Assembly (NCBI GenBank): GCA_024275825.1
Contig: JAJRYK010000014.1
Coordinates: 1-46,609, forward strand
Length of the DNA: 46,609 nt
Direction: 5' to 3'
DNA from: Alphaproteobacteria bacterium
Lineage (GTDB): Bacteria; Pseudomonadota; Alphaproteobacteria; Micavibrionales; Micavibrionaceae
A model generated the notes under the pieces. That model was not told where the DNA came from. It ran no database searches and was given only the letters and a program-made list of their open reading frames with translations. Below, piece by piece: positions 538-21,692 of this stretch; position 1 is the stretch's first letter; each line of letters opens with the position of its first letter. Both the position numbers and the translations under genes were made by a program.

Positions 538-870
538 ATGTTGTTGAAAACCATTGATAAATTACTGGATCGGTCTTTTCAAAAAGAGCCGAATTGTAGC
601 CGTCTTAATCGGCTGGAATCTGATGTTTGGAGGCAGATCAGGCAGAGTAAAACAGCGCAGAGTGCCATATCATTCATGATGCCTGTCTGGGGCAATACAC
701 AGCTTCGTTATGCCTCTTTGAGCTTGGCTCTTATTGGTGGGCTGATGGTGTCGCAAGCTTCTATCCAACCCACGCCGCACGCTTATACATTGGGATTAGA
801 AGTATTTTCACCTAACGCCCCCTTTCCTATGACAGCAAGTTTTGAACAGCCGGACCCAGCCTCCTCATGA
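538..870 (+). CDS. CnrY-like membrane anti-sigma factor (putative)
   Basis: This is a 110-residue protein with a charged N-terminal half (about residues 1-55) containing LNRLESDVWRQI, one hydrophobic segment (about 58-75) and a short periplasmic tail. That is the layout of small single-pass anti-sigma factors such as CnrY/NccY, which hold an ECF sigma factor through the cytoplasmic N-terminus. Sequence identity to CnrY is not obvious, so the call rests mainly on size, topology and position. It is the first gene before a CnrX-like sensor and an ECF sigma factor, the same order as cnrYXH in Cupriavidus. The stop overlaps the next start (ATGA), so translation is probably coupled. The start ATG follows TGGAGTAAAAGAT, an acceptable ribosome binding site. 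Confidence 0.6.
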   Translation: MLLKTIDKLLDRSFQKEPNCSRLNRLESDVWRQIRQSKTAQSAISFMMPVWGNTQLRYASLSLALIGGLMVSQASIQPTPHAYTLGLEVFSPNAPFPMTASFEQPDPASS

Positions 871-1319
871 AAAACATTCCTCACATAGCCTTCTTTTTAG
901 TGATCGTCGCCTGCGCCGGGTTTGCCGGAGTTTGGATTGGTCAAAATACATTGATGGTGCGCCAGCATCCGCATGGAAATACTGGTGATATGCACTCTAT
1001 ACTGCACGACCAATTGGAGATCACAACACAACAAGAAGAGCAGCTCACGCCAATTGAGAAAGAGTTTAAGCGCCTGAAAGCCCTGTATCAAGGCCAGATG
1101 AAAACCGCAAATATGGAGCTGGCACAGGCTATTAAGGATGGCGGTTATGAATCCCCTGAAATTGAAACAATCGTTCATAAAATCCACAGCGCCATGGGAT
1201 CTTTGCAAAGCTTAAGTCTTGAGCATCTTGCGGATATGCATAAAACTCTGAGCGCAGAGCAAAATAAAAAACTGCAGGAGATGGTTGTTGAGCAGCTTCA
1301 ACGGAACGCCGGAGAATAA
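867..1319 (+). CDS. CnrX-like periplasmic metal sensor (Metal_resist/CpxP-like fold)
   Basis: This is a 150-residue protein with an N-terminal membrane anchor (about residues 7-26) and a helical periplasmic domain. In CnrX of Cupriavidus metallidurans the Ni/Co ligands are His42, His46, Glu63, His119 and Met123. This protein has His43, His47, Glu64, His120 and Met124: all five ligand types at identical spacing, shifted by one residue. It should therefore sense metal in the periplasm and signal to the anti-sigma factor encoded just upstream (4-bp overlap). The coding sequence overlaps the following sigma-factor gene by 35 bp. The exact metal is not settled, because the pump encoded downstream has copper/silver features rather than Ni/Co ones. 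Confidence 0.88.
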   Translation: MKNIPHIAFFLVIVACAGFAGVWIGQNTLMVRQHPHGNTGDMHSILHDQLEITTQQEEQLTPIEKEFKRLKALYQGQMKTANMELAQAIKDGGYESPEIETIVHKIHSAMGSLQSLSLEHLADMHKTLSAEQNKKLQEMVVEQLQRNAGE

Positions 1320-1902
1320 CAGCGCGCCGGATAATCGCAGCGATGGAGAAATTATGCTGGCTCTGCAAAGTGGTCAGGATAAGGCGCTTGATGCGTTAAT
1401 GCGTCGTTACAAACAGCAGCTTTTTCATTTCGTGACTCGTTATACGCGTGATGAAGATACGTCTTACGACATTGTGCAGGAAACATTTTTCCGCGTTTAT
1501 AATAAGGCTGAGAGTTTTAATCCGGCCTATAAATTCAAAACATGGCTTTATCAGATTGCGCTTAATTTATGCCGCGATTACGCGCGTAAAAAGAAGCTGC
1601 AATCCTTTGTGTCACTGGACACATGGATGGGTAGTGATGACGGCAGCGGATCGCTGCACGATATTTTGACCAGCGGTGAGAATATTGAGAGCCTGACCGA
1701 GCACCGTCAAACACTTAAACTGCTGAAAAATCAGATCGACCGGCTGCCGCATAAGTTAAAGACGGCTCTGATCTTGTTTGCCCTTGAAGGCCATTCACAA
1801 GAAGAATGCGCGCGTATCCTGGGCATTACACCAAAGACGGTGGAGATGCGGGTTTATCGCGCTCGAAAAACACTGCTGCAAACCCTCTCTAAGAAAATTT
1901 GA
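1285..1902 (+). CDS. CnrH-like ECF sigma factor
   Basis: This is a 205-residue RpoE-type sigma factor. Region 2 lies at about residues 35-105, with DIVQETFFRVYN and FKTWLYQIALNLCRDYARKKK-type core- and -10-binding features. Region 4 lies at about 145-203, with LPHKLKTALILFALEGHSQ and a helix-turn-helix ending VEMRVYRARKTL. No ATG fits upstream of region 2, so a TTG start is chosen at 1285 (a second TTG is at 1288). CAGGAG lies at 1275-1280, four bases upstream. The overlap with the sensor gene suggests translational coupling. It probably directs transcription of its own operon when the CnrX-like sensor releases it. Confidence 0.9.
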   Translation: MLSSFNGTPENNSAPDNRSDGEIMLALQSGQDKALDALMRRYKQQLFHFVTRYTRDEDTSYDIVQETFFRVYNKAESFNPAYKFKTWLYQIALNLCRDYARKKKLQSFVSLDTWMGSDDGSGSLHDILTSGENIESLTEHRQTLKLLKNQIDRLPHKLKTALILFALEGHSQEECARILGITPKTVEMRVYRARKTLLQTLSKKI

Positions 1903-1959
1903 GGGATTACGCTATACTCTTCGTACTAGACTTAAGTGACTTTAATTTCGGAGACTATT

Positions 1960-3237
1960 ATGACCTTCAAAATCGTTCTAAAATCCCATCTTTTTGCTTT
2001 GAGCGCGGCGCTTGTTTTATTAAGTTACGGCTCTAGCTTTGCCGTCTCGTTTGATGAGTATATGCAGCGCTTGAGCGATCACCCGCAGGTCATGAGTGTT
2101 TTGGCGCAGAGTGAGGCGACAAGAGCGCAAGCACAAGGGGAATTGGGATTGCCTGACCCAACTTTTTCAATCGGTGTTGATAATGTGCCGGTTTCAGATC
2201 CGGCCTTTGACCGGTTTTTACCGACCTCTAAAGTTATCGGGTTTAACCAGAAAATTCCAAATCCGGTCATGCTGCGCGCGAAATCAGACAAGTTGGAACA
2301 GCTTTCCGAGAAACAGAAGTTAATGGCAGACTACACGGCTGCGCGGCTGCGTTTTATGTTGGTGACCAAGCTGGCGGAGCATGAAGCGGTAAAAACGCAG
2401 ACGGGGCTAATTAAGAAGCAGCTTGGCTTTTATCACGAGCTGGAAGACACATTTAAAGGCCAGATTGAATCGGGGCGCGCGGTCTATCAACGGTTTTCTG
2501 AAGTGGATGTGGAGCGCGCCGAGGCCGAGCGGAAGCTGAATGATCTTGATGCTAAACTCACGTCAATTGAGGCGGAGTTTGTGCGGCTGATTGACGAGGT
2601 GCCGGAGGTTGAAATCCCTGAAATTGCTGAGGCAGGCTGGAATAAAGATTCTAGTGCGTTATACCCCGTTTTGATTGCGGCGCAGGATATTGATATCGCG
2701 AAGAAAGGCGTTGGTATTGCGGACGCAGCCTTCCTGCCGAACTTTGGCGTAAACGCCATTTATAAGCAACGCGAAGATGGAAAAAATGGAAGTTTTTCTG
2801 GAGATGACTGGTTCTCTGTCCAGGCGCAAATTACAGTGCCACTCTGGGCCTCACAAAATCGAAAACCCAAATTGAAAGCTGCCAAAAACCGTGAGCGCAG
2901 CGCGATGTTTGCTTATGATGATATGCGCCGCCAGTGGGTACAAAAAATGACAGCGTTGCAAAGTATGCGGGATGCGGCGGGTAAAAATGTTAAAGTTCTG
3001 CAGGATAAAGACCATGCGATGAAGGGCAAAATCAAAGCTGCACAGCGCAATTACGAAGCCGGAACAGCGGAGCTTGACGGTGTCTTGTTCGCCAAAATTG
3101 ACCGTCTGAATATTCAAGCACAACTCGCGCAGGTTAAGGCTATGCACACATCCAGAGCCGCAGAGTTTAATTCAAATATTATAAGTGGTTTTACGGCAGA
3201 TACTTCTGCTGATTTGCTAAAGGAGACACAAGAATGA
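1960..3237 (+). CDS. CusC/TolC-family outer-membrane efflux protein
   Basis: The protein has 425 residues from ATG 1960, which is preceded by CGGAG at a good distance. An upstream in-frame GTG at 1936 is less likely. A signal peptide (about residues 1-28, ending SSFA) is followed by two long coiled-coil repeats typical of outer-membrane factors, e.g. around ERAEAERKLNDLDAKL. The protein forms the outer-membrane channel for the adaptor and RND pump encoded next. Its stop overlaps the next ATG by 4 bp. No acylated N-terminal cysteine is visible, so it is probably not a lipoprotein like E. coli CusC. Confidence 0.88.
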   Translation: MTFKIVLKSHLFALSAALVLLSYGSSFAVSFDEYMQRLSDHPQVMSVLAQSEATRAQAQGELGLPDPTFSIGVDNVPVSDPAFDRFLPTSKVIGFNQKIPNPVMLRAKSDKLEQLSEKQKLMADYTAARLRFMLVTKLAEHEAVKTQTGLIKKQLGFYHELEDTFKGQIESGRAVYQRFSEVDVERAEAERKLNDLDAKLTSIEAEFVRLIDEVPEVEIPEIAEAGWNKDSSALYPVLIAAQDIDIAKKGVGIADAAFLPNFGVNAIYKQREDGKNGSFSGDDWFSVQAQITVPLWASQNRKPKLKAAKNRERSAMFAYDDMRRQWVQKMTALQSMRDAAGKNVKVLQDKDHAMKGKIKAAQRNYEAGTAELDGVLFAKIDRLNIQAQLAQVKAMHTSRAAEFNSNIISGFTADTSADLLKETQE

Positions 3238-5093
3238 AAAAATTAGTCCCGGTTCTGTTTTTGGCTCTGGCCTTTGTCGTTGCGCCATTATTTCTTTCGG
3301 CATTTGTAAAATCCCCGGCGTTTATAAGTGGGGCGGCCTTCGCAGCGGAGCAGCAATATACATGTCCTATGCACCCGCATTATGTGGCAGATCGCCCCGG
3401 ATCCTGCCCGATTTGCGGGATGGATCTGGTCGCCCTAGAAAGTGACGGGGATAGCGACGATGAAGAGAATGGCGCTATCGAGGAAGACGTGATGCAAGCA
3501 GCGCCTTCACCATCAACCAAGACAGGCGAGAGGAAAATTTTATATTGGGTTGCGCCGATGAACCCGAATTACAAAATGGATAAACCGGGCAAATCGCCTA
3601 TGGGTATGGATCTGGTTCCGGTTTATGCGGAAGATGATGCTGGCGATGATACATCCGCAGGTAAAAAGAAAGGGAGCAATAAACGCTCCGGTGTAACGAT
3701 TGCACCCGAAACCATTCAGAGCATTGGTGTGCGCACGGAAAAGGCGCAAATGGCAAGCTTTGGTACACTGGTACGCAGCTACGGCGATGTGACAGAAAAT
3801 GTGCGCTTGCAAAGTGATATTTCAGGCCGCGTATCGGGCTGGATTAAAGAGCTGAAAATCAAAGCGGAAGGCGACGAAGTTAAGAAAGGTGATCTTCTTT
3901 TTATGCTCGATAGCCCGGAGTTGATTTCCGCGCAGCAAGACTATATCAGCGCTCGCAGCACAGGAATTAAGGGTCGCATTAATGCCGCCAAAAGACGGCT
4001 CGGATCGCTTGGCGTACAAGATATGGCTATTCAGGAAATTAAAGGCAAAGCAAAGCCTTATATCCCGTTTTATGCCACGCAGGATGGGATTGTCAGTGAG
4101 ATCAATATCCGTGAGGGTAGCTACGTTAAGCCGGGTATGAAAGTCATTCAGATACAGGATTATTCATCAGTGTGGATCGATGTCAGCATTGCCGAGCAGG
4201 ATATTTCTTACGTGAACGGCGAAACCAAAGTCAGTGTAGCTTTTCCGAATTTAGGCATTCAGGCGCAAGACGCACAAATTGATTATATCTATCCCACCAT
4301 TGATCGCGCAACGCGCACAGGCCGCGTACGGCTGGTTTTGGACAACGCAGATAAGATGATTAAGCCCGGCGCGTATGCCGATGTAGAATTTGAAACGGGT
4401 GTAAAACGTCGCCTCTCTATCCCTAGCGATGCAATTCTTAAAAGTAAAGATGGAGATTTTGTTGTTGTCGCGATTAGAGAAGGACGTTTTCAACCGCGCA
4501 AAGTTTTGTCAGGATTGCGCTATAAAGGCCGCACGGAAGTTCTGGAGGGGTTAAAGAATAACGATAGCATTGTGGTGAGCGGTCAATTCTTGATCGATTC
4601 CGAAAGCGCCCTGCGGGAATCTTTCCGCAAAATGAAGCGTATGCAAACGGATCTAGCCGCGCTGGATATTGATGATGACCAAATGGTGATGATTGATCAT
4701 CTGGTTGATGCTGCGCTTTATATACATGCGGAAGTCACAGCCGGGCGTTCTCCTAACGCCAAAATGATTATGCCTGCCCTTACATTGGGTGATCACTTGA
4801 TTCCTGTCTTTCGCGGGACGCAATTACAATTTGTACTGGAAGATGCTGAGCGTGCGCTTATCAAAGGCAAAGAAAGCCTGACGGATAAGGAATGGCTGGA
4901 GACTATGAATGAACTGGTCATTGCTCTGAAGCCATGGATTTTAGAAGGAAAGCCCGATTATTATGTTTCTAAAGATGTGAACATTTATATGGATCACGCC
5001 TTAAATACATATTGGCTGCAAAGAGGCGATGCACCGCAGAACCCTTATAGCGATGGCATGGCGATGAAGGTGAGTAATACAGATGAAAAGTAA
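3234..5093 (+). CDS. cusB: CusB-like membrane fusion protein with heavy-metal-binding domains
   Basis: This is a 619-residue periplasmic adaptor. After a signal peptide (about 1-38) comes a heavy-metal-binding motif at residues 43-65 (CPMHP...CPICGMDL). Next is a CusB N-terminal motif at 102-131 in which Met109, Met123 and Met125 match the three copper/silver-binding methionines of E. coli CusB (APM, SPMGMDLVP). The barrel-sandwich and beta-barrel domains span about 175-455. An extra helical C-terminal part of about 150 residues follows, resembling the DUF3347-type extension seen in some CusB homologues. It overlaps both neighbours (4 and 11 bp), as expected in a tightly coupled CBA operon. 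It would link the inner-membrane pump to the outer-membrane channel and pass metal to it. Confidence 0.92.
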   Translation: MKKLVPVLFLALAFVVAPLFLSAFVKSPAFISGAAFAAEQQYTCPMHPHYVADRPGSCPICGMDLVALESDGDSDDEENGAIEEDVMQAAPSPSTKTGERKILYWVAPMNPNYKMDKPGKSPMGMDLVPVYAEDDAGDDTSAGKKKGSNKRSGVTIAPETIQSIGVRTEKAQMASFGTLVRSYGDVTENVRLQSDISGRVSGWIKELKIKAEGDEVKKGDLLFMLDSPELISAQQDYISARSTGIKGRINAAKRRLGSLGVQDMAIQEIKGKAKPYIPFYATQDGIVSEINIREGSYVKPGMKVIQIQDYSSVWIDVSIAEQDISYVNGETKVSVAFPNLGIQAQDAQIDYIYPTIDRATRTGRVRLVLDNADKMIKPGAYADVEFETGVKRRLSIPSDAILKSKDGDFVVVAIREGRFQPRKVLSGLRYKGRTEVLEGLKNNDSIVVSGQFLIDSESALRESFRKMKRMQTDLAALDIDDDQMVMIDHLVDAALYIHAEVTAGRSPNAKMIMPALTLGDHLIPVFRGTQLQFVLEDAERALIKGKESLTDKEWLETMNELVIALKPWILEGKPDYYVSKDVNIYMDHALNTYWLQRGDAPQNPYSDGMAMKVSNTDEK

Positions 5094-8000
5094 TAATGAA
5101 GACGAGCATCTCTCCCATGACCCAACGCAATCTTTTGTTGCGAAAATCATTGAATGGTCGGTGAATAACCAGCTTTTGATTGGCATGATGATGATCGCGC
5201 TTTTGATTGCGGGCGTGATGGCGATCAAGAATACGCCGCTTGATGCCATTCCCGATATGTCCGACACGCAAGTGATTATCAAAACTGAATTTGCCGGACA
5301 ATCGCCGCAAATTATCGAGGATCTGGTAACCTATCCGCTTTCCACCACTATGCTTGGTCTGCCGAAAACCAAGAATGTGCGCGGGTTTTCGATGTTCGGC
5401 ACGTCCTTTGTTTATATCATCTTTGAAGATAAGGTTGACCAATATTGGGCGCGTAGCCGCGTCATTGAAGCGCTATCTAAAATTCAGGGCGATTTGCCGC
5501 CCAATGTCGTGCCGCAAATTGGCCCGGATGCCACGGGGGTGGGCTGGGTTTATCAATATGCTGTGATTGATAAAACCGGGAAACATGATTTATCGCAGCT
5601 GCGATCTTTGCAAGATTGGTTCCTGAAGTTCGAGCTGGCCACCGTACCGGGCGTATCAGAAGTCGCCTCGGTTGGCGGGTTTGTGAAGGAATATCAGGTT
5701 CTGATCGATCCGAACCGCTTGCGCGCCTTTAACGTGCCGATCAAGCGTTTGATGGATGCGGTGCGCAGTGCCTCTATGGATGCGGGCGGGCGCGTGATTG
5801 AAAAGGCGGAGATGGAGCTGATGATCCGCTCCAAGGGCTATGTCACCAATATAAACCAGCTCAAAAAGATCGTGCTTTATGCGCGTGATGGAACGCCGGT
5901 GAAGCTATCGGATGTTGCCCGCGTGATTGAAGGGCCAGAGCTGCGGCGCGGCGTGACTGAGCTGAACGGCGAGGGTGAGGTTGTTTCCGGCGTGGTGATT
6001 ATGCGCTCTGGCGAGAACGCTCTGCATGTGATTGAGGGCGTGAAGGAAAAGCTCGAAGAGCTGCAACACGGCTTGCCCGAAGGGGTTGAGATTGTATCCG
6101 TGTATGACCGCGCGCCGCTGATTGAGGGCGCGGTTGAATATCTGGTGGAAAAATTGATTGAAGAAGGTTTTGTTGTTTTATTTATCTCCTTCATTTTCCT
6201 TTTACATGTGCGCTCGGCTTTTGTCGCGATTGTCACGCTGCCGCTTGGCGTTTTGGCGGCCTTCATTGTGATGTCGGCGCAGGGGATCACGGCCAACATC
6301 ATGTCGCTGAGCGGCATTGCCATTGCCATTGGCGCGATGGTGGATGCGTCCGTAGTGATGGTTGAAAATGCGCATCGAAAGCTCTCGGATTTAGGAGATG
6401 GTGCCACGCGAGAGGAAAAGAACGCGGCTATTCTGCTCTACACCAAGGAAGTTGGGCCGGGGCTGTTTTTCTCTTTGTTGATTATCACCGTGTCATTTAT
6501 GCCGGTTTTTGCGCTGACGGGGCAATCTTACCGCCTGTTCTCACCGCTGGCCTTTACTAAGACCTATGCGATGGGGTTTGCGGCAATTTTCTCCATTACT
6601 GTTGTGCCTGTTTTGATGCTCTGGCTTATACGCGGTAAAATCCGTAAGGAAGAAGAAAACCCGATTAATCGCTGGTTTATCCATATGTACAAGCCGCTTT
6701 TAAACGGCGCGCTGAAAAAGAAATATCTGACACTTATGCTCGCCTTTGCTTTGCTTTGCTCTATGATCTGGCCCATTGCAAAGACAGGCTCGGAATTCAT
6801 GCCGGCGCTTTATGAGGGGGAGCTGCTCTATATGCCCACCACCTTGCCGGGCGTGTCCATTACCAAGGCCAAGGAAATCCTCCAGCAAACTAACCGTATG
6901 ATCAAGCTGGTGCCGGAAGTGCATCACGTTTTCGGTAAGGTCGGCCGCGCCGATACCGCCACTGACCCTGCGCCGATTTCAATGATCGAGACATGGATCA
7001 AGCTCAAACCCAAATCGGAGTGGCGCGAGGGGATGGATGTTGATGCACTGATTAAAGATTTTAATAGCCGCGTGAAAATCCCCGGCGTGGTGAATAGCTG
7101 GGGCTATCCCATCACAACCCGGATGGATATGATCTCAACGGGCGTGCGCACGCCGATCGGGATCAAGATCGCAGGTGATGATCTGGATGTTATCGGACGG
7201 GTCGCGCTTGATATCGAGGCCAGTATCAAGGATGTTCCCGGCACGCGCTCGGCCTTTGCCGATCGCGTCACAGGCGGGAAATATCTGGAGATTGAGCCAA
7301 ATAGAGACGAGCTTGCACGGCGCAATATTGATCTGGGCGTGTTCCAAAACATTATCGGCACCGCGCTGGGCGGGATGAAAATGGCGGAATCTATTCAAGG
7401 GCGGGAGCGCTATAACATCATGCTGCGCTATGACCGCCCGTTTCGCGAAGACCCGGAAGATCTCTCTAATATCCTGATCCCGACACCGCAAGGCCAGCAT
7501 ATCCCGCTGGGCGAGCTGGCAAGCATTGAGTTTGTCGAAGGCCCCCCGATGATCAAGAGCGAAAATGCGCGTTTGACGGGCTGGGTCTTTGTTGATATCG
7601 AAGGTGTAGATATCGGTACATACGTCAAAAATGCACAAAAAATTGTCGCAGAAAAAGTTGACCTGCCGCCCGGTTACGCCCTGATCTGGTCGGGGCAGTT
7701 TGAGCAAATGATGGAGGCCAAAGCACGGATGCAAATTGCTGTTCCAGCGGCAATCTTTATTATATTTATGCTGCTGATGCTGCATTTCGGGCGGTTTGAT
7801 CGTACGCTTCTTATTATGCTCTCGCTTCCCTTCGGGTTGATCGGCGGGGTGTGGGCGCTCTATTTCGCGGGCTATAATTTCTCTGTCGCGGTCGGTGTTG
7901 GCTTTATCGCGCTGGCGGGCATAGCGGTGGAAACTGCTGTGGTGATGCTGCTCTACATTGACCATCAAGTGCGCGCCTATCCGCCCAAAACGCGCCAAGA

Positions 8001-8253
8001 GCTGTTCGATGCCGTTATGCATGGCGCGGTGCTGCGCGTGCGGCCAAAGCTGATGACCGTTAGTGTGATCCTTGCGGGCCTAACCCCGATTTTTCTAACC
8101 TCCGGGCTGGGCTCAGACGTTATGCGCCGCATTGCCCTGCCTATGGTTGGCGGCATGGTCAGCACGACAGTCCTAACCCTGATCGTTATTCCGGTTGTAT
8201 ATTATATCTGGGAAAGCCGCAGATTTAAAAAAGAGGAAAATTCTGAGGGATAA
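5083..8253 (+). CDS. cusA: CusA-like Cu/Ag efflux RND transporter
   Basis: This is a 1056-residue HME-RND pump with twelve predicted membrane segments and two large periplasmic loops. The copper/silver-site methionines of E. coli CusA (573, 623, 672) have counterparts Met584 (LLYMPTTLPG), Met634 (ISMIETW) and Met683 (DMISTG), with the same 50 and 49 residue spacing. The fourth membrane helix carries AIGAMVDASVVMVENAH, the pattern of the monovalent-metal (Cu/Ag) group, with the proton-relay Asp and Glu. It exports periplasmic or cytoplasmic Cu(I)/Ag(I) using the proton gradient, together with the two preceding gene products. The start overlaps the cusB-like gene by 11 bp. Confidence 0.95.
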   Translation: MKSNNEDEHLSHDPTQSFVAKIIEWSVNNQLLIGMMMIALLIAGVMAIKNTPLDAIPDMSDTQVIIKTEFAGQSPQIIEDLVTYPLSTTMLGLPKTKNVRGFSMFGTSFVYIIFEDKVDQYWARSRVIEALSKIQGDLPPNVVPQIGPDATGVGWVYQYAVIDKTGKHDLSQLRSLQDWFLKFELATVPGVSEVASVGGFVKEYQVLIDPNRLRAFNVPIKRLMDAVRSASMDAGGRVIEKAEMELMIRSKGYVTNINQLKKIVLYARDGTPVKLSDVARVIEGPELRRGVTELNGEGEVVSGVVIMRSGENALHVIEGVKEKLEELQHGLPEGVEIVSVYDRAPLIEGAVEYLVEKLIEEGFVVLFISFIFLLHVRSAFVAIVTLPLGVLAAFIVMSAQGITANIMSLSGIAIAIGAMVDASVVMVENAHRKLSDLGDGATREEKNAAILLYTKEVGPGLFFSLLIITVSFMPVFALTGQSYRLFSPLAFTKTYAMGFAAIFSITVVPVLMLWLIRGKIRKEEENPINRWFIHMYKPLLNGALKKKYLTLMLAFALLCSMIWPIAKTGSEFMPALYEGELLYMPTTLPGVSITKAKEILQQTNRMIKLVPEVHHVFGKVGRADTATDPAPISMIETWIKLKPKSEWREGMDVDALIKDFNSRVKIPGVVNSWGYPITTRMDMISTGVRTPIGIKIAGDDLDVIGRVALDIEASIKDVPGTRSAFADRVTGGKYLEIEPNRDELARRNIDLGVFQNIIGTALGGMKMAESIQGRERYNIMLRYDRPFREDPEDLSNILIPTPQGQHIPLGELASIEFVEGPPMIKSENARLTGWVFVDIEGVDIGTYVKNAQKIVAEKVDLPPGYALIWSGQFEQMMEAKARMQIAVPAAIFIIFMLLMLHFGRFDRTLLIMLSLPFGLIGGVWALYFAGYNFSVAVGVGFIALAGIAVETAVVMLLYIDHQVRAYPPKTRQELFDAVMHGAVLRVRPKLMTVSVILAGLTPIFLTSGLGSDVMRRIALPMVGGMVSTTVLTLIVIPVVYYIWESRRFKKEENSEG

Positions 8254-8307
8254 GCGTTTTTGCGCCGTACTATTATATGTGAGGCATAATTTAAAAAGGA
8301 GATCACT

Positions 8308-8616
8308 ATGAAGAAGAAAAACCTAGCGCTATCCATGACCATATCCACGGCAATCTTGAGCCTGTCGGCAGCGGGCGCTTTGGCGCATTTGGAGCCGCAG
8401 GACGGCGAAGACATGCAGAAATGCTACGGCGTGGTTAAGGCTGGCGAGAATGATTGCGCATCTGAAGCCAATCAACATGGCTGCGCGGGCATGGCGGAAA
8501 CAGATTCCGATGTGAATGAATGGATCAAAATTCCAAACGGCCTTTGTGACAAGCTGGTTGGCGGGGCCTTAGCAGAAGGCAAGACAGCCCAACTGGACAA
8601 AGACAAAAAAGATTAA
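8308..8616 (+). CDS. Bufferin-type (BufA1/DUF2282) secreted peptide precursor
   Basis: This is a 102-residue protein with a signal peptide (about 1-27, ending GALA) and the DUF2282 signature KCYGVVKAGENDCA, then HGCAG and PNGLCDKLVGG, giving four conserved cysteines. DUF2282 proteins have been described as bufferins, ribosomally made peptides whose cysteines are modified by MNIO (DUF692) enzymes and which help bacteria cope with copper. No DUF692 or DUF2063 partner lies in this window. It follows cusA after 54 bp with a strong AAGGAG site, so it is probably co-expressed with the pump and would bind copper in the periplasm. Whether it is modified here is unknown. Confidence 0.82.
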   Translation: MKKKNLALSMTISTAILSLSAAGALAHLEPQDGEDMQKCYGVVKAGENDCASEANQHGCAGMAETDSDVNEWIKIPNGLCDKLVGGALAEGKTAQLDKDKKD

Positions 8617-8644
8617 CCACCATAAAAGAGAGAGGATTTAAGCA

Positions 8645-9136
8645 ATGAAAAAAATATTTTTAGCAGCCATTATAACGGTTCTGACATTTCCGGCGATGGC
8701 AGATGAAATGAAAATGAAGGACGGCATGATGATGGACCATGACGCTATGCCTGCGCAAACAGACACAAATACAGAGACAAAGGAAGCGCACGAGGATGGC
8801 GCGCATGCTGACTGGTTGAAACCGGTTGAGGCTAAATATGTCTGTATGGTCAATAATGCACGCTTTGAGGATGTGCAAATTCCAACAGAGGTAAATGGCA
8901 AGACCTATTATGGCTGCTGCGAGATGTGCAAAGCCAAGCTGGAAGGCTCGCAAGAATTGCGTGAAGCAACAGACCCTGTCAGCGGGAATATTGTTGATAA
9001 AGCAACCGCCGTGATCGGTGCGGATGTGAGCGATGATGCCGTTTATTATTTCGAAAATGAAGAAAATTTCCAGAGCTTTTTGAATAGTCGCAAAAAAGAC
9101 AGCGACCATGAAGAAGATCACGATAATCACCATTAA
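8645..9136 (+). CDS. Secreted Cys/His-rich metal-binding protein (TRASH/YHS-like)
   Basis: This is a 163-residue protein with a signal peptide (about 1-19, ending AMA), a Met/His/Asp-rich stretch (residues 20-40, with KMKDGMMMDHD), and a small domain at about 64-145. That domain contains YVCMVNN and GCCEMCKAKL, a cysteine arrangement like the metal-binding TRASH/YHS family. The C-terminus is an Asp/Glu/His tail ending HEEDHDNHH. It lies 28 bp after the bufferin gene and probably acts as a periplasmic metal chaperone or sink for the Cus system. The exact family is not certain. Confidence 0.7.
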   Translation: MKKIFLAAIITVLTFPAMADEMKMKDGMMMDHDAMPAQTDTNTETKEAHEDGAHADWLKPVEAKYVCMVNNARFEDVQIPTEVNGKTYYGCCEMCKAKLEGSQELREATDPVSGNIVDKATAVIGADVSDDAVYYFENEENFQSFLNSRKKDSDHEEDHDNHH

Positions 9137-9153
9137 AAACGGGGAGCGCTGAT

Positions 9154-9720
9154 ATGCTGGGCATTGAGATCATACCAAACTGGCACCCGATCTTTGTACA
9201 TTTTACGGTTGGGCTTTTAAGCATATCGGCACTGTTTTACTTGGCCGGGCTGGTGCTGCGAAAGCCTAATTTTTTGCTTGTTGCACGGTGGAATCTTTGG
9301 GTTGGCGGCGCGATAACGGTTCTTACGGTTCTGGCTGGTTTTTATGCTTATGGCACGGTGGCGCATGATGCACCATCCCACGCCGCTATGACCGATCATA
9401 AAAACTGGGCTTTGGTTACAGCCTTTATTTTTGCCGGACTTGCCGGATGGTCACTGGCCAAACATCGCGGGGCGAAATCCGTAAGTTCTGGCTTTGTCGT
9501 TCTGATTTTACTGGCAACAACAGTGCTCGGCATTACAGGATTTAAGGGCGGCGAAGTCGTTTATCGTCACGGCACCGGCGTTATGCGTATGCCGGAGGTT
9601 TCCGGTGATGGTGGCCATGACAGCCATTCTCATGGTGAAAACACTATGGAAGGATCTCACGGCGGAGAAGAAAGTCAAATGCCGGAAAGTGATCATGATA
9701 GCAACCCACACGGACATTAA
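9154..9720 (+). CDS. DUF2231-family membrane protein with His-rich tail
   Basis: This is a 188-residue protein with four hydrophobic segments (about residues 13-33, 44-65, 85-101, 110-128). It starts with the DUF2231 hallmark NWHPIFVHFTVGLL. The C-terminal 45 residues are soluble and rich in His, Gly, Ser and Glu (DSHSHGEN, SHGGEE, NPHGH), suited to metal binding. The role of DUF2231 proteins is unknown; they recur near copper genes. It lies 17 bp after the preceding gene and is probably in the same transcript. Confidence 0.78.
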   Translation: MLGIEIIPNWHPIFVHFTVGLLSISALFYLAGLVLRKPNFLLVARWNLWVGGAITVLTVLAGFYAYGTVAHDAPSHAAMTDHKNWALVTAFIFAGLAGWSLAKHRGAKSVSSGFVVLILLATTVLGITGFKGGEVVYRHGTGVMRMPEVSGDGGHDSHSHGENTMEGSHGGEESQMPESDHDSNPHGH

Positions 9721-9877: not shown

Positions 9878-9909
9878 TTGACCTTGGAGTATGCTCCAAG
9901 GTGTAGACT
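9878..9909 (+). promoter_or_regulatory. MerR-type promoter/operator
   Basis: The -35 TTGACC (9878-9883) and -10 TAGACT (9904-9909) are separated by an overlong 20-bp spacer, the hallmark of MerR-regulated promoters. The spacer region carries a perfect 9-4-9 dyad, ACCTTGGAG/CTCCAAGGT (9881-9902). It lies directly upstream of the merR-type gene, pointing into it, so the regulator most likely controls its own operon, which runs to the copper ATPase. Confidence 0.92.
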
Positions 9910-9932
9910 CTCCAGTGAAAGGGTTAAGAGCT

Positions 9933-10361
9933 ATGGGCAATATGACGATTGGGCAATTGGCGAAGGAAAGCGGCGTAAGAACGGATACTATTCGTTACTA
10001 CGAAACGCTGAAACTTGTTGAGCCTGTGGGCAGGACAAGCGCTGGTTACAGGCTCTATGACACAGATTCTATTGAACGCGTTTCCTTTATCAAGCGCGCA
10101 AAGTCGCTGGGATTTACCCTGTCTGATATCTCTGCCCTGCTGGAGCTGAAATCTACGCAGAGCGCAACCTGTCAGGAAATGCTTGATCGGACGGAAGCAA
10201 AAATCAAAGAAGCCAAAGACAATGTCCGGCATTTAAAACATATTCATGACGCACTGGAAAAACTGGCAAGCGCTTGCCCCGGCGGAGATATACCGCTCAG
10301 TGAATGTCCTATTCTTGATCATCTTTATCCTAAAAACAAAGCAAAGGAGCCAAAGTCATGA
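9933..10361 (+). CDS. MerR-family heavy-metal-responsive regulator
   Basis: The protein has 142 residues from ATG 9933 (ATG 9942 is also possible). The longer frame starting at 9891 would begin inside the operator and is rejected. The N-terminal winged helix-turn-helix (MTIGQLAKESGVRTDTIRYYE) is followed by the dimerisation helix and a metal loop. Numbered from MTIG, it has Cys77, Cys112 and Cys122. Cys112 and Cys122 are the usual loop cysteines. Position 77 is Ser in the Cu(I) sensor CueR but Cys in sensors of divalent ions such as ZntR; this protein has Cys. It should distort and activate the promoter at 9878-9909. It overlaps the next gene by 4 bp. The metal sensed is more likely divalent (Zn/Cd/Pb) than Cu(I), although the operon encodes a copper-type ATPase. 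Confidence 0.92.
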   Translation: MGNMTIGQLAKESGVRTDTIRYYETLKLVEPVGRTSAGYRLYDTDSIERVSFIKRAKSLGFTLSDISALLELKSTQSATCQEMLDRTEAKIKEAKDNVRHLKHIHDALEKLASACPGGDIPLSECPILDHLYPKNKAKEPKS

Positions 10362-15799: not shown

Positions 15800-15956
15800 G
15801 TTCAGGGGTGCGGTGTATCTTGATTCAGGCTCTAGAAAACTACGAGTCCGCTTGAATTAATCTTTCCAAACATTCCCTTGTATGACTGTGTACCGAGAGC
15901 TGTTCTCGCTCGCGTACTGTTTTTTATTGCCTCAAATAATTATAAGGATTACTAAA

Positions 15957-17207
15957 ATGAGACAACAATTAAGATTATTAACTTGTTTAACTATTGTGGG
16001 GTTATCGGCCTCGGCACACGCGCAGGAACAGGTGGCTCTGGATAAACCAAACATAGAGCGTTTTATAAACCATATCTGGGATTTTAGCCCCACCATTGCG
16101 GAATCTGAGGCTAGAGTTTTGGCTGCTGAGGCTGGCCAGCGTGCGGCTTCAAAATGGCGACATAACCCGGAAATTGAATTTGGGTTAGAGGATGTCGACG
16201 GTGAAGATAAAACCAAGACGCTCGGCATAAGCCAAACGATAGATTGGAGTGGTAAATTCCTGTCATCGGGGCAGGCGGCCTCCTTTGAGTTGCAAGCCGT
16301 GGAAGCGGAGCGTGATGGGGTTCGCCAAGATACGGCGCTGAACGTCCTCTCTAGCTTGGCTGATTACCGTGCGGCAAAGGATATTTATAATCTTGCTGTA
16401 GAGCGCTCCGGTTTGATGGAGCGTTTTGCAACACTGGCGCAAAAGGGCTTTAAGGCCGGAGATATTGATCAGAGTGAGAAAAATCTGGCGCAACTGGCGC
16501 TGTCCGAAGCACTTATTGTGCAGGCAGATGCGGAAAATGAACTGGGGGAAACGAAGCAGGCATTGGATTCTTCTGTTGGTTTTCCATTAGAGAATGGTTT
16601 TAGCTTACCGGAATTGCCCGGCAGCTTGCCAGAGCTTCCAGAAACGCTGGATGAAGAGCAAATTTTAATGGCCCTTCCCTCTTTGCGCGCGATGAGAAGC
16701 CGCGAAGCGGCTGCGAAAGCTGTGATCACAGGTGCGTGGAAAAATCGCTTACCAGACCCCACCATTGGCATTACAGGCGGTCAGGATACCGGCGCGGATA
16801 TGATTGGGTTTTCGGTGTCGGTGCCGCTCAATATTTTCAATACATATGGTGCGGAAGTGGACAGGGCTAAGGCGGACGCCCTTGCCGAAGCCAAGGCTGG
16901 ACAGAATGCGTTTTATAGCGCCAGGACACGCATTAAAGCCGCAAAGCGCTCTTACCAGCTCTCGCGAAAAGCATGGGAGAACTGGCAAGGAAATGGCGCG
17001 CAGGCTTTGGCCGAGCAAGCCGATATTCTTGATCGTAAATTTAAAGTTGGAGATTTAAGCGCGACTGATTATCTGGTGCAGATCGAACAAGCGCTGGATA
17101 CGCAGGTTGCAGCGGAAGAGCTTCATGCAAAAGTGTGGAGGTCATGGTTTTCATGGCTGGCCGCATCAGGAAAAACCGAACAATGGATTCAAAATTCAGG
17201 AGAATAA
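15957..17207 (+). CDS. CzcC-like outer-membrane efflux protein
   Basis: The protein has 416 residues from ATG 15957, preceded by AAGGAT. The 25 extra residues of the longer frame (from 15882) do not form a signal peptide. The true N-terminus does (about 1-22, ending AHA). The mature part is a TolC-family outer-membrane factor with two helical repeats; the first begins HIWDFSPTIAESEARVLAAE. It is the outer-membrane channel for the adaptor at 17213 and the RND pump at 18555. It diverges clearly from the first outer-membrane factor at 1960, so the two are not a recent duplication. Confidence 0.87.
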   Translation: MRQQLRLLTCLTIVGLSASAHAQEQVALDKPNIERFINHIWDFSPTIAESEARVLAAEAGQRAASKWRHNPEIEFGLEDVDGEDKTKTLGISQTIDWSGKFLSSGQAASFELQAVEAERDGVRQDTALNVLSSLADYRAAKDIYNLAVERSGLMERFATLAQKGFKAGDIDQSEKNLAQLALSEALIVQADAENELGETKQALDSSVGFPLENGFSLPELPGSLPELPETLDEEQILMALPSLRAMRSREAAAKAVITGAWKNRLPDPTIGITGGQDTGADMIGFSVSVPLNIFNTYGAEVDRAKADALAEAKAGQNAFYSARTRIKAAKRSYQLSRKAWENWQGNGAQALAEQADILDRKFKVGDLSATDYLVQIEQALDTQVAAEELHAKVWRSWFSWLAASGKTEQWIQNSGE

Positions 17208-17212
17208 ACGAA

Positions 17213-18490
17213 ATGAAAAAATTATTACTTTTAAGCACAGTTGCATTATTTACCTTCTCAAACTCGGCTTTTGCGGAAGATGACGGGCATGGTCATGGGG
17301 AGGAAGAAAAGCCTCATGCTGTATCTGAGGCCGACCATGATGACCATGATGATGAGGGTCACGATGATGAGGGTAATGGGGAGGATGACCATGATGATGA
17401 GGAAGAAAAAGAAGATGACGGTCACGGTCATGCAGAAAGTGGCGGCGGAGAGCATGACGAAGAAGGTGGCGCAGAGGTCGATTTAAGCCCTGAAAACATG
17501 AAAGAAGCCGGCATTCTTGTTGAGCCTTTAACACTGCAAAATCTGGAAGCTGAGGTGAAGGCACCGGGCGAGGTAAAGCTGAACTCTTACCTGAGCAGCA
17601 AGGTGACACCGCGCATCGAAGCGCAAGTGGTGGAGCGCCATGCCAAGCTGGGCGAGGTTGTTGAAAAAGGTCAGCCGCTTGTGACGCTATCGGGCGTGGA
17701 TATGGCCGAAGCGATTGGCGCGCTTATGGTCGCGCATAAAGAATGGAAGCGCGTTAAGCAGCTTGGTTCTTCGGCGGTATCAGCTAAGCGTTATAGCGGC
17801 GCGAAAATCGCTGATGAGCAGGCCCGCGCAAAGGTCATGGCTTATGGCATGACCGAGAGCCAGGTTAAAGCGCTGCATGAAAAAGGCTCTGGCGGTAATC
17901 CTGGCATGTTTCAACTGGTTGCGCCGCAAGGCGGTACAATTGTCAGCGATGATTTCATCGAGGGCGAGTTGATCGAGCCGGGGCGCGTGTTGTTCAATAT
18001 CGTGAATGAGGACTTCCTGTGGGTGGAAAGCCGCCTGTCCCCTGAGCTGGCTAAGAGTGTGGATGTTGGCGCAGGGGCGCGTGTTCATATTCCCGGTAAT
18101 GGCTGGCTGCAAGGCGAGGTTGTGCAGAAACATCATTTACTGGATGAGGAAACCCGCACGATTGGTGTACGCATCGCGGTGGATAACGAGGAAGATCGCC
18201 TCCATCCCGGCATGTACGTTGATACGCGCATTCAAAGCGGCAATGGGGCGCAGTATCTTGCTGTGCCGACGGCTGCTGTTTTGCGCTCCTCCGATGGGGA
18301 CTGGGTGGTTTTTGTTGAGAGCGAGGGCAGGACCGGAGAGTTTAAGCCTGTGGAGATTGAAATGTTGCGTAACATTGAGAATTACACCGTGATTAAAGGC
18401 TTGCCCGAAGGTACACGAATCGTGACCGAAGGCGCTTTCTTTGTGCAATCCGAACTCGCCAAAAGCGGGTTTTCAGTACACAACCATTAA
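17213..18490 (+). CDS. CzcB-like membrane fusion protein with His/Asp/Glu-rich segment
   Basis: The protein has 425 residues from ATG 17213 (CAGGAG upstream), five bases after the czcC-like stop. A signal peptide (about 1-22, ending AFA) is followed by some 65 residues made almost only of Asp, Glu, His and Gly (residues 23-87), a likely metal-collecting arm. The adaptor core follows, with barrel-sandwich halves around VTPRIEAQVVERHAKLGEVV and LVAPQGGTIVSDDFIEGE. It connects the RND pump to the outer-membrane channel and may capture metal in the periplasm. The coding DNA of the acidic arm consists of degenerate gatgat/catgat repeats. Confidence 0.9.
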   Translation: MKKLLLLSTVALFTFSNSAFAEDDGHGHGEEEKPHAVSEADHDDHDDEGHDDEGNGEDDHDDEEEKEDDGHGHAESGGGEHDEEGGAEVDLSPENMKEAGILVEPLTLQNLEAEVKAPGEVKLNSYLSSKVTPRIEAQVVERHAKLGEVVEKGQPLVTLSGVDMAEAIGALMVAHKEWKRVKQLGSSAVSAKRYSGAKIADEQARAKVMAYGMTESQVKALHEKGSGGNPGMFQLVAPQGGTIVSDDFIEGELIEPGRVLFNIVNEDFLWVESRLSPELAKSVDVGAGARVHIPGNGWLQGEVVQKHHLLDEETRTIGVRIAVDNEEDRLHPGMYVDTRIQSGNGAQYLAVPTAAVLRSSDGDWVVFVESEGRTGEFKPVEIEMLRNIENYTVIKGLPEGTRIVTEGAFFVQSELAKSGFSVHNH

Positions 18491-18554
18491 AACTTGTACC
18501 GAGTAAGTGCGAGGTGCCCGATAGGGCGGAAAAAACAAAAGGAAATAAATAATT

Positions 18555-21500
18555 ATGCTGAATACAATTATTGACGGCGCGGTGCGTAACCGCCTGATGG
18601 TGGTCTTGATGCTTATATCCATTGTGGTTGGGGCATTCATGATGCTGCCGAAACTCAATCTGGATGCCTTTCCTGATGTGACGAATGTTCAGGTGACGAT
18701 TAACACCGAAGCCCAAGGGCTGGCCTCTGAAGAGGTTGAGCAGCTTATTACCTACCCTGTTGAGGCGGTGATGTATTCCCTGCCTGATGTGGAAGAAGTG
18801 CGCTCGATCTCCAAAACAGGGCTTTCGCTCATTACGGTGGTGTTTAAAGAAGGGGTGGACATATATTTTGCCCGCCAGCTTGTGTTTGAACAGCTGCAAG
18901 ATGCACGGGAGCAAATCCCCGACGGCGTGGGAACGCCGGAGATTGGGCCAAACACGTCCGGGCTGGGGCAGGTTTTTCAATATATGCTAACCACCGATAA
19001 TCCTGAAAAATTTGATATTATGACCTTGCGATCCCTGAATGACTGGGTTGTGAAATTGCTGCTTATGCCGATTGATGGCGTAACGGAAATTTTGTCTTTC
19101 GGCGGTGATGTGCGTCAATATCAGGTGCAGCTAGAGCCTGCCAAACTTCTGTCTTACCAGCTCCACGCTGAGGATATTGTGAGCGCGATTGAGGATAATA
19201 ACAGCAATGCAGGCGGCTGGTATCTCAACCGGGGCGCGGAGCAGCTTGTTATTCGCGGCGTTGGCTGGGTGCGCGGCGGGGAAGACGGTATCCGCGATAT
19301 TTCCAATATCCCTGTGAAGGACGAAGATGGCGTGGTTGTGCGCGTGCGTGATGTTGCAAAAATAGCTTACGGCTCAGAAATACGCCAGGGCGCGGTGAGT
19401 ATGACCCGGCGCAATGAAGACGGAAGCGCCGGTCCGATGGGCGAGGTTGTTGCCGGCATCGTTATGAAACGTATGGGCGCCAACACCAAAAATACGATTG
19501 ACGAGATTAATGCGCGCCTGCCGATCATTCAAAATGCGTTACCAGAGGGCGTGAAAATCGAAGCCTTTTATGATCAAGCTGAATTAATCAGCAAGGCCGT
19601 TTATACGGTTACTCAGGCTTTAACCCAGGCCTTTATATTGATTGTTATTATATTATTCTTGTTTCTTATGAATATCCGCGCTGCATTTTTGGTTCTGATT
19701 TCCGTGCCTATTTCTATCATTCTGGCCTTGATGGCGATGGCCTATTGGGGAATTTCTGCCAATCTGATGTCGCTTGGCGGGCTAACCATTGCCATTGGGA
19801 TGATGGTGGATGGCGCGGTTGTGATGATGGAGAATATTTTTAAACACCTCTCCCATCATGATGAGGAGGAAAACCCGGAGAGCGTAAAACTTCGTATTTT
19901 AGAAGCCGCTCGTGAAGTCGGCCGCCCTATATTTTTTGCAGTATTGATCATCATTGTCGTCTTTATGCCCCTCTTTACATTGGAGGGTGTGGAAGGGAAA
20001 TTATTCCAGCCCATGGCATCTTCTATTGTGCTGGCCATGTTGGGATCATTGATTGTGGCGCTCGTTGTTATTCCTGCGCTCTGCATATATCTCTTCAAAA
20101 AAGGCGTTGATCATAAATCAAACTTTTTAATTGATGCGTTTGATGCGGTTTATAAGAGGGCTCTAACGGGGGCGTTAAAAGCCAAAAAGACGGTGGTGGT
20201 GACAGCCATTGCAATCTTTGTTGGTTCACTTTTACTCGTGCCATTCCTCGGCACTGAATTTGTACCGGAGCTGGAAGAAGGCACGCTCAATATCCGCGTC
20301 ACGCTTGCGCCGTCCTCCAGCATGGAAACATCTCTTGGCGTTGCCTCTAAATTAGAGCTGAGGCTTCTGGAGTTCCCGGAAGTGCTCTATGCTTTTAGCC
20401 GTGTCGGCCGCCCGGAGCTTGGCGGTGATCCGGAGCCTGTGTCCAATGTTGAGATTTATGTCGGCATGAAACCTGTCAATGAATGGACATCAGCTAAAAA
20501 CCGCTTTGAGCTGCAAAAACTTATGGAAGAAAAAATGTCTGTTCATCCGGGTTTGCTCTTCACCTTCTCTCAGCCGATCGCTACGCGTGTAGATGAGCTG
20601 CTGTCCGGCGTAAAGGCACAGCTTGCGATTAAGCTGTTTGGCCCTGATCTTGATGTTTTGGCCGAAAAAGGCAAGGCCATTGAAACGTTGGTGCGCACAA
20701 TTGAAGGTGCGCAATCGGTGGAGATGGAACAGATTGCGGGAGAAGCGCAGTTGGTCGTGCGCCCTGATCGCGACAAGCTCGCCCGATACGGCATTCCGGT
20801 GGGCCAAGTCATGGCTCTGGTATCGGACGCGATTGGCGGGGCCGCCGCCGGACAGGTCATTCAAGGCAATGAGCGTTACGATATTTATGTGCGCTTTGCT
20901 AAAGAGTACCGCAATGACATAGAGGCAATATCCGACATTATCATGCAAGCCCCAAGCGGTGCATGGGTCAGGCTGGGCGATGTGTCTGATGTGTCTATCG
21001 AATCGGGGCCGCCGCAAATCAGGCGCGATGATGTGCAGCGCCGCGTGGTGATACAGTCCAATTTAAGCGGGCGCGACATGGGCAGCTTTGTTGAAGAAAT
21101 CAATGAGCGCATTAAGGAAGAAATCAACCTCCCGTCCGGTTATTCCGTGGTATTTGGCGGGCAATTTGAGAACCAGAAACGCGCGCAAGCACGGCTCATG
21201 ATCGTGGTGCCGCTTTCGCTGGGGTTGATTTTCTTGCTCCTGTTCTTTGCCTTTGGCTCGGTCCAGCAAGCCGCTCTGATCATGCTTAACGTCCCGCTGG
21301 CCATGATCGGCGGTATTGCTGCGCTGTATTTCTCCGGGCAATATTTATCTGTGCCGGGCTCTATCGGTTTTATCGCCCTGTTTGGCGTAGCGGTGCTTAA
21401 CGGCGTGGTGATGGTCAATGCCATTAATTTGCTGGTGGAAAGCGGGACAGAGGCAGGCCGAGCTGTCTTTGACGGCGCATCATCGCGCCTGCGCCCCGTT

Positions 21501-21692
21501 CTTATGACTGCATTTACAACAGCGCTGGGGCTAATCCCGATGCTGCTGGCCACCGGCATTGGATCAGAAGTGCAAAAACCGCTGGCTACGGTCGTGGTTG
21601 GGGGATTATTTTCCTCAACTTTGCTGACATTATTTGTCTTGCCGGTTCTCTACAGCGCATTCTCGCAGCGACTCATTAATGAACGTAGGTAG
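18555..21692 (+). CDS. CzcA-like heavy-metal efflux RND transporter
   Basis: This 1045-residue HME-RND pump has twelve membrane segments. Membrane helix 4 reads TIAIGMMVDGAVVMMEN. It keeps the counterparts of CzcA Asp408 and Glu415 (Asp419, Glu426), but the counterpart of CzcA Asp402 is Ala413. The helix is thus intermediate between divalent-metal CzcA and Cu/Ag CusA. The methionine triad of CusA is absent, which argues for a divalent substrate such as Zn, Cd, Co or Ni. It is preceded by 64 bp with AAAGGAAATAAATA as ribosome binding site and is the last gene of the metal region. Confidence 0.92.
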   Translation: MLNTIIDGAVRNRLMVVLMLISIVVGAFMMLPKLNLDAFPDVTNVQVTINTEAQGLASEEVEQLITYPVEAVMYSLPDVEEVRSISKTGLSLITVVFKEGVDIYFARQLVFEQLQDAREQIPDGVGTPEIGPNTSGLGQVFQYMLTTDNPEKFDIMTLRSLNDWVVKLLLMPIDGVTEILSFGGDVRQYQVQLEPAKLLSYQLHAEDIVSAIEDNNSNAGGWYLNRGAEQLVIRGVGWVRGGEDGIRDISNIPVKDEDGVVVRVRDVAKIAYGSEIRQGAVSMTRRNEDGSAGPMGEVVAGIVMKRMGANTKNTIDEINARLPIIQNALPEGVKIEAFYDQAELISKAVYTVTQALTQAFILIVIILFLFLMNIRAAFLVLISVPISIILALMAMAYWGISANLMSLGGLTIAIGMMVDGAVVMMENIFKHLSHHDEEENPESVKLRILEAAREVGRPIFFAVLIIIVVFMPLFTLEGVEGKLFQPMASSIVLAMLGSLIVALVVIPALCIYLFKKGVDHKSNFLIDAFDAVYKRALTGALKAKKTVVVTAIAIFVGSLLLVPFLGTEFVPELEEGTLNIRVTLAPSSSMETSLGVASKLELRLLEFPEVLYAFSRVGRPELGGDPEPVSNVEIYVGMKPVNEWTSAKNRFELQKLMEEKMSVHPGLLFTFSQPIATRVDELLSGVKAQLAIKLFGPDLDVLAEKGKAIETLVRTIEGAQSVEMEQIAGEAQLVVRPDRDKLARYGIPVGQVMALVSDAIGGAAAGQVIQGNERYDIYVRFAKEYRNDIEAISDIIMQAPSGAWVRLGDVSDVSIESGPPQIRRDDVQRRVVIQSNLSGRDMGSFVEEINERIKEEINLPSGYSVVFGGQFENQKRAQARLMIVVPLSLGLIFLLLFFAFGSVQQAALIMLNVPLAMIGGIAALYFSGQYLSVPGSIGFIALFGVAVLNGVVMVNAINLLVESGTEAGRAVFDGASSRLRPVLMTAFTTALGLIPMLLATGIGSEVQKPLATVVVGGLFSSTLLTLFVLPVLYSAFSQRLINERR

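Follow-up and report, generated by a model that had tools for sequence, protein, structure and literature searches.

A CnrYXH-type regulatory module joined to a CusCBA-type pump in a Micavibrionaceae genome as a probable copper response system

The window analysed here, an entire contig of 46,609 nucleotides (nt) (JAJRYK010000014.1, GenBank assembly GCA_024275825.1) from a genome of 1.92 Mb assigned to the Micavibrionaceae, carries at positions 538 to 8,253 six genes on one strand which mostly overlap according to the open reading frame (ORF) calls and which code for a CnrY-like anti-sigma factor (Y), a CnrX-like sensor (X), an extracytoplasmic function (ECF) sigma factor (H) and the three components of a CusCBA-type pump. 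Quite probably, these genes form a self-contained response to copper, and probably to silver as well, in which YXH controls itself, cusCBA and a gene for a DUF2282 protein further downstream. This reading is based on the genes and their order, the ligand residues of the sensor, the class of the pump and a conserved promoter-like motif, all of which are observed; copper as the signal would follow from gene linkage together with a His-x-x-Met pair in the sensor. A preliminary description had taken the locus for a mixed system with unusual wiring, in which either a CnrX-like site senses copper or a nickel/cobalt signal induces a copper pump. The first of these options is the better one, whereas the second is disfavoured by gene linkage, by the promoter motif and by sensor residues 107 and 110; the notion of an unusual wiring finds no support, as YXH next to cus or copAB genes recurs across genera of the order and beyond.

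According to the proposed mechanism, X would be located in the inner membrane and extend its sensor domain into the periplasm; in the absence of metal, it would hold H together with membrane-bound Y. Rising periplasmic copper (or silver) would bind to X, upon which Y would free H, this release step being modelled on the homologous cnr system. H would then guide RNA polymerase to TGAGGG-N16-CGTA promoters before Y-X-H, cusCBA and the DUF2282 gene, and export of the metal by the pump would close the loop.

With respect to the regulatory module, the gene of Y (positions 538 to 870 of the forward strand, as are the other features of the cluster) codes for 110 amino acids with one hydrophobic stretch only, at about residues 58 to 76 by hydropathy. 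No Pfam match was found for Y; it matches a profile of Y proteins from CnrY, sphingomonads and Caulobacter with a probability of 95.8 (E 7e-9), and with its short cytosolic part, single transmembrane segment and short tail it fits the class II CnrY-like anti-sigma factors, so that by homology with cnr it probably holds H. The sigma factor gene (1,285 to 1,902, start codon uncertain) codes for Sigma70_r2 and Sigma70_r4_2 domains in Pfam and shares 30% identity over 189 amino acids with CnrH, and its kinship was further placed by a tree (see below). The succession of anti-sigma factor, sensor, ECF sigma factor and then C, B and A proposed earlier was found as six genes on the same strand, and its equivalence with the cnr operon is borne out by the order cnrYXHCBAT in pMOL28. 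Judged by these testable sequence features, the locus is a member of the CnrYXH kind; judged by its pump, it is not a cnr/ncc system.

The sensor X (867 to 1,319) matches the Metal_resist family PF13801 in Pfam (E 1.2e-11), and a PDB search resulted in seven matches below E 0.01, all of them CnrX or NccX (4wwb, E 6e-11), the next match having an E value of 0.53. Identity to CnrX is 27% over 128 amino acids, and in an alignment without gaps from query residue 38 to 147, with an offset of one, H43, H47, E64, H120 and M124 align to CnrX H42, H46, E63, H119 and M123, as claimed already in the preliminary description. An AlphaFold2 model of X has a mean predicted local distance difference test score of 76.7, with at least 90 in the ten-residue blocks from 51 to 130, and its 15 best Foldseek matches are CnrX or NccX, the first with a template modelling score of 0.86 by target length; as modelled, X has the CnrX fold. 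X also carries H107 and M110, i.e., the His-x-x-Met pair. A second PF13801 gene of the genome (L001) was considered and set aside: it codes for a protein without the ligands and is part of a different ECF cluster.

The pump consists of a CusC-like outer membrane factor (1,936 to 3,237; OEP, PF02321; the ATG at 1,960 being the likely start), a CusB-like adaptor (3,234 to 5,093) and a CusA-like Cu/Ag pump of the resistance-nodulation-division (RND) type (5,083 to 8,253). CusA scores 1153 bits against E. coli CusA, 548 against ZneA and 492 against CnrA (30% identity), and M584, M634 and M683 align to M573, M623 and M672 of E. coli CusA, which we take to be its methionine triad, where CnrA has S, A and E. 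In CusB there are two HMBD domains (E 2.6e-22), the second of which carries Met 109, 123 and 125 at what are presumably the metal-binding methionine positions of E. coli CusB; relative to the latter, we assume one HMBD domain to be extra. Scores and aligned residues thus agree with the earlier assignment to the Cu/Ag class with CusA triad and CusB methionines, and by score and the three methionines the pump is of the Cus class and not of the CnrA/NccA class, provided that the signatures of RND pump classes are as we assume them to be. In common with cusCFBA/CusRS of E. coli, the locus has the CusA methionine triad, the CusB methionines and a tripartite Cu/Ag pump; it differs in having an ECF sigma factor with an anti-sigma factor instead of a two-component system, no two-component gene being present among the annotated cluster genes (a genome-wide search for CusRS was not made), and in lacking cusF in the cluster, where no CusF domain was found by Pfam among the genes at 1,936 to 9,720. 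As a side observation, the C-terminal part of CusB, about 150 amino acids (window 4,620 to 5,093), has no Pfam match, and the CusB protein of the related locus L034 is about 160 residues shorter overall.

The motif TGAGGG-N16-CGTA occurs exactly at positions 478, 1,900 and 8,244, before Y, cusC and the DUF2282 gene, respectively. The first site (478 to 503) ends 34 nt 5' of the start codon of Y, the second (1,900 to 1,925) overlaps the stop codon of H and is conserved in relatives, and the third (8,244 to 8,269) overlaps the stop codon of CusA and is also found at L034. In shuffled windows the mean is 0.03 occurrences, and none of 200 shuffles reached three. When one mismatch was allowed, three exact and two one-mismatch matches were found at a shuffle mean of 1.77, with one of 100 shuffles reaching five. 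The promoter pattern with other spacing was discarded, as its five matches against a shuffle mean of 7.05 are at chance level. In the entire genome there are seven exact matches at spacings of 15 to 17, the four outside the cluster all lying within ORFs. The sites 5' of Y and of the first effector gene are therefore best described as putative sigma-H promoters, and so, by prediction, is the one before the DUF2282 gene.

The same motif is found in relatives, where over 71 distinct loci (1.02 Mb) it occurs 105 times, compared to once for the reversed pattern. At gene starts there are 79 of the 105 sites, namely at those of Y (28), copA (20), cusC (12), a copper-binding protein (6), copC (6), a Cu-type ATPase (3), DUF2282 (2) and DUF305 (2), one further site being found at X, and the other 25 sites at no gene that bears a label. 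As each ORF was begun at its first start codon, a site lying as much as 160 nt within a gene's longest reading could still be assigned to that gene. A looser form, [TA][GA]AGGG-N15-17-CGTA, was counted in distinct loci after dropping eight duplicate rows. At loci with Cus or Cop genes downstream it is present upstream of the module in 32 of 46 and downstream of H in 27 of 46 (expectation from shuffles 0.2 and 0.16; reversed pattern 0 and 0), and where such genes are merely nearby in 2/5 and 0/4. The respective numbers are 5/13 and 2/12 for loci with no labelled pump, 2/2 and 2/2 for those with other RND pumps, 1/1 and 0/1 for that with CnrA nearby, and 0/5 at either place for the Cnr-linked loci, where the strict TGAGGG form was not found either. 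In pMOL28, CAAGGG or CGAGGG is followed by CCGTA ending 8 nt before the transcription starts of cnrYp and cnrCp, which have been mapped (PMC9045368), and the adapted form [AG]AGGG-N15-18-CCGTA is present at three of five Cnr loci upstream and at three of five downstream. From these related sequences, the sigma-promoter code seems to have been little altered between cnr and the copper-linked loci, while sensor and effectors changed.

Which genes such a sensor is found with was established by a contig scan with the sensor alignment A2, an earlier alignment, A1, having been too diverse; six weak matches, as well as two weak matches of the phylum sample, were left out of the counts. Thirteen out of 142 genomes belonging to the same order carry the sensor (14 places, window included), and the search for further ECF-CnrX-CusCBA clusters suggested in the preliminary description yielded YXH followed by Cus genes in nine other genomes. 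In seven of these cusCBA is complete, three of the seven having a MerR gene between H and cusC; in one (G466) the contig ends inside cusB, and one (G467) has cusC alone. At the loci with the intervening MerR gene (L037-L039) the promoter motif is still located directly 5' of cusC. The four remaining places comprise a second copy with copAB downstream (G460), one with another RND class (G492), one with a MerR gene and a CnrA-like pump upstream (G448) and a contig end (G422). The closest named relatives found are metagenome-assembled genomes (MAGs), several of them labelled Micavibrio sp. At the locus of G467 (L036), what comes after YXH and cusC is not cusB; an unlabelled ORF of 284 residues and a tRNA-Gly gene are found there, near the contig end.

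Beyond the order, 19 of 398 genomes in a phylum-wide sample had a match, and of 22 strong sensor places other than the window's own, 16 are followed on the same strand, at a distance of up to 8.5 kb, by copA or CusA, four have either of these nearby, and two have CnrA downstream. YXH together with copAB was also found on sphingomonad plasmids (7 of 47 and 6 of 79 plasmid records being viewed) and in many alphaproteobacterial genomes. In the family of G838, such a sensor is present in 61 of 149 genomes, for 20 of which new neighbourhoods were fetched, and in the family of G751 in six of 249, all six Cnr-linked. Two loci on MAG contigs bridge the locus types: L089 with YXH-copA-copB-CusCBA in one run, and L085 with YXH-CusCBA and then a CnrA-like gene, on account of which the script had classed it as nickel, whereas it is counted here as copper. 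Since the switch mostly sits with copper genes in the sampled relatives, the pairing of YXH with a Cus pump looks like a copper system and not like an odd hybrid.

The sensors themselves were compared by residue counts over 70 distinct sequences, in which L090, a broken sensor reading left out of an earlier count, figures as one of the exceptions. That X might sense nickel or cobalt like CnrX, so that a copper pump would have been captured by the wrong regulator, is in agreement with the exact spacing of all five CnrX ligands and with the fold matches to CnrX and NccX. However, HHEHM at the five ligand places is found not only in 5/5 sensors with Cnr downstream but also in 39/45 with Cus or Cop genes downstream, and the five-ligand set was consequently rejected as a nickel marker; being common to both, it provides no nickel signature. 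What differs is helix 3, where H107 and M110 correspond to His and Met in 43/45 copper-linked sensors and in 4/4 with Cus or Cop genes nearby, in contrast to Glu and Ala in 5/5 Cnr-linked ones. As, in addition, this linkage is found repeatedly in different genera of the order, and the motif is located mostly 5' of copper genes in relatives, a nickel or cobalt signal appears very unlikely.

According to another explanation, X would be a broad transition-metal sensor (Cu, Ag, perhaps Zn, Ni and Co), with specificity being set by the promoter-bearing genes and not by X. Crystal structures of CnrX with Cu, Ni, Co and Zn do exist (PDB titles 3epv, 2y39, 2y3b and 2y3d), and some related sensors accompany RND pumps of other classes (L042, L087) or lie close to a CnrA-like pump (L043). 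However, the conservation of His-x-x-Met in copper-linked sensors, as opposed to His and Gln at these positions in L042 and L043, points to some selectivity, albeit from few events, and we regard a broad sensor as improbable, though less so than one for nickel. The His-x-x-Met pair would suit Cu(I) and Ag(I).

A further group of sensors, L151-L157, has lost part of the ligands, with Tyr at the place of H120 in all of them; the His of the pair is lost as well, the Met being kept in three. These sensors may sense something else, as might also be imagined for X, namely copper-damaged envelope proteins instead of the metal, like its distant kin Spy and ZraP. X weakly resembles Spy (E 0.003, well under the cut-off) and, by Foldseek, to the ZraP fold (E 0.4), but its metal ligands are conserved, and no Cop or Cus genes were found in the stretches fetched for the ligand-losing L151-L157, of which four of seven are shorter than 8 kb. 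Sensing of damaged proteins has therefore hardly any likelihood.

A sigma factor tree of 71 rows, from which eight duplicates and one row without a sigma reading had been dropped, unites the Cnr-linked rows in one branch with 99 in the Shimodaira-Hasegawa-like approximate likelihood ratio test. On this tree His-x-x-Met requires four changes, located at the Cnr branch, the L151-L157 branch, L042/L043 and L044; the first three accompany an absent copA/Cus linkage, the fourth does not. As the tree is rooted at its midpoint only, it does not show a direction from copper to nickel. It is nevertheless conceivable, if on balance rather doubtful, that CnrYXH is at root a copper switch, with one ECF family, the common promoter TGAGGG-N16-CGTA, a His-x-x-Met sensor and copper regulons across the Alphaproteobacteria, and that cnr branched off from it by loss of His-x-x-Met from the sensor and exchange of the pump, at a little changed promoter code.

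Several observations weigh against a copper response of the proposed kind. Copper as the signal is deduced from linkage, and the samples are biased to copper by a search profile made up mostly of copper-linked sensors. The looser motif is absent from part of the copper-linked loci and from most of those with copper genes nearby, and L011 and L012 have the motif before other copper genes and no strict match before Y. L044 has copAB downstream yet lacks His-x-x-Met. Conversely, for seven distinct His-x-x-Met sensors the stretch examined contains neither copA or copB nor a Cus pump gene: L041 (where the contig ends), L113 (with a TonB receptor), L160, L162, L163 and L166 (with copC/copD nearby) and L087 (with another RND class). 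The Cus-linked sensors L034 and L035 have Val at the position of ligand Met124, the rest of the site being intact. Finally, an independent-pair test of His-x-x-Met against copper linkage comprised two supported pairs only and had no power, and as the Cnr-linked sensors are few (five distinct ones on one branch), the contrast may only mark a clade; the association of His-x-x-Met with copper linkage is thus suggestive only. With respect to L113, located on a plasmid of Sphingobium yanoikuyae A3, the intact site is encoded beside a TonB-dependent receptor gene with no metal-efflux genes there.

Amongst known systems, cnrYXHCBAT of Cupriavidus metallidurans pMOL28 (nickel/cobalt) shares the order Y-X-H-C-B-A, the CnrX fold, the five ligands, the CnrY-like anti-sigma factor and promoter-like sequences before Y and C that are similar in sequence and distance to the gene; it differs from the present locus, which has a CusA-class pump, H107 and M110 in place of Glu and Ala, and no cnrT-like gene by Pfam among the three genes after cusA. 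The YXH-copAB loci of sphingomonad plasmids, annotated as 'periplasmic heavy metal sensor', have in common the module, His-x-x-Met, copper genes and, in most, the promoter motif, but their effectors are copA (a multicopper oxidase) and copB, often with copC/copD, and not CusCBA.

Of the copper-responsive ECF systems, SigAb of Acinetobacter and SigF of Caulobacter are, as far as the available parts of the sources go, the nearest cases with an anti-sigma factor. SigAb-AabA-AabB likewise has a small membrane anti-sigma factor modelled as CnrY-like, but the sigma gene comes first, and the direct regulon consists of sigAb, relA and a small RNA, metal pumps being affected indirectly (PMC12153292). 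The Cu-induced SigF-NrsF is an ECF copper response with a DUF2282 gene in its cluster, but it has NrsF as anti-sigma factor and the promoter GTAACC-N16-CGAA, and no CnrX-type sensor is described in the parts available (PMC8224329, PMC3511200). CorE of Myxococcus is a copper-controlled ECF sigma factor for copper genes, too, and is named as the copper ECF in the available part of a review on marine copper signalling; in contrast to the separate periplasmic sensor proposed here, it senses via its own C-terminal extension and has no anti-sigma factor (PMC10141476). CnrYXH-type control of copA/copB or cus was not described in the open-access titles and abstract openings among the matches listed, an earlier mention in ECF reviews being possible.

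For periplasmic nickel/cobalt sensing through an ECF system, CnrX serves as the model. Should the same five ligands be used for copper sensing in many of its relatives, the metal choice would reside elsewhere in the protein, for which His-x-x-Met offers a hypothesis of two residues. If the interpretation as a copper response is correct, a label of nickel resistance derived from CnrX similarity would be misleading for such loci. Moreover, Cus and Cop genes would be subject to an additional type of control, beyond two-component and MerR-type regulators, and the promoter code would make the regulon readable from the sequence.

Downstream of CusA, the predicted regulon would include the small DUF2282 protein (8,308 to 8,616; PF10048, E 6e-21), called bufferin-like on the basis of what we assume of bufferin biology, its match to the BufA2 model being weak and under the cut-off. 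The gene has its own predicted sigma-H promoter, and no maturation enzyme is encoded among the adjoining genes; the one genome match to PF05114 (DUF692-type; L177, G000:C13) lies beside another DUF2282-like gene, in a frame holding one TAA. The two genes that follow (8,645 to 9,720 by ORF calls), with a weak TRASH domain and DUF2231 in Pfam, are possibly cotranscribed with it, as the gaps are 17 and 28 nt. Further 3' there are genes for a MerR regulator, DUF2933, a methyltransferase-like protein, a permease, a Cu-type P-ATPase exceeding the TIGR01511 (copper) cut-off (601 vs 397) and a second RND pump. Of this neighbourhood, the genes for DUF2282, the MerR regulator, DUF2933 and the P-ATPase speak for the copper reading. 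The MerR-family regulator (9,891 to 10,361), 5' of the P-ATPase, scores between the ZntR, MerR and CueR models and under their cut-offs. The second complete RND C-B-A set (15,882 to 21,692) has TIGR00914 matches above cut-off, R, N and E instead of the Cus triad, and no exact sigma-H motif 5' of it. A tRNA-Trp gene was considered as an integration site and dropped, since it is found in the window and, about 1.7 kb off, at L033, the remaining 11 of the 12 loci scanned, several of which are on short contigs, not having it. The metal genes as a whole (window 136 to 29,677) are located between this tRNA-Trp gene, on the opposite strand, and the housekeeping genes recQ, those of glycine cleavage, nusG and, further on, rpoB and rpoC, and may thus be an insertion next to core genes.

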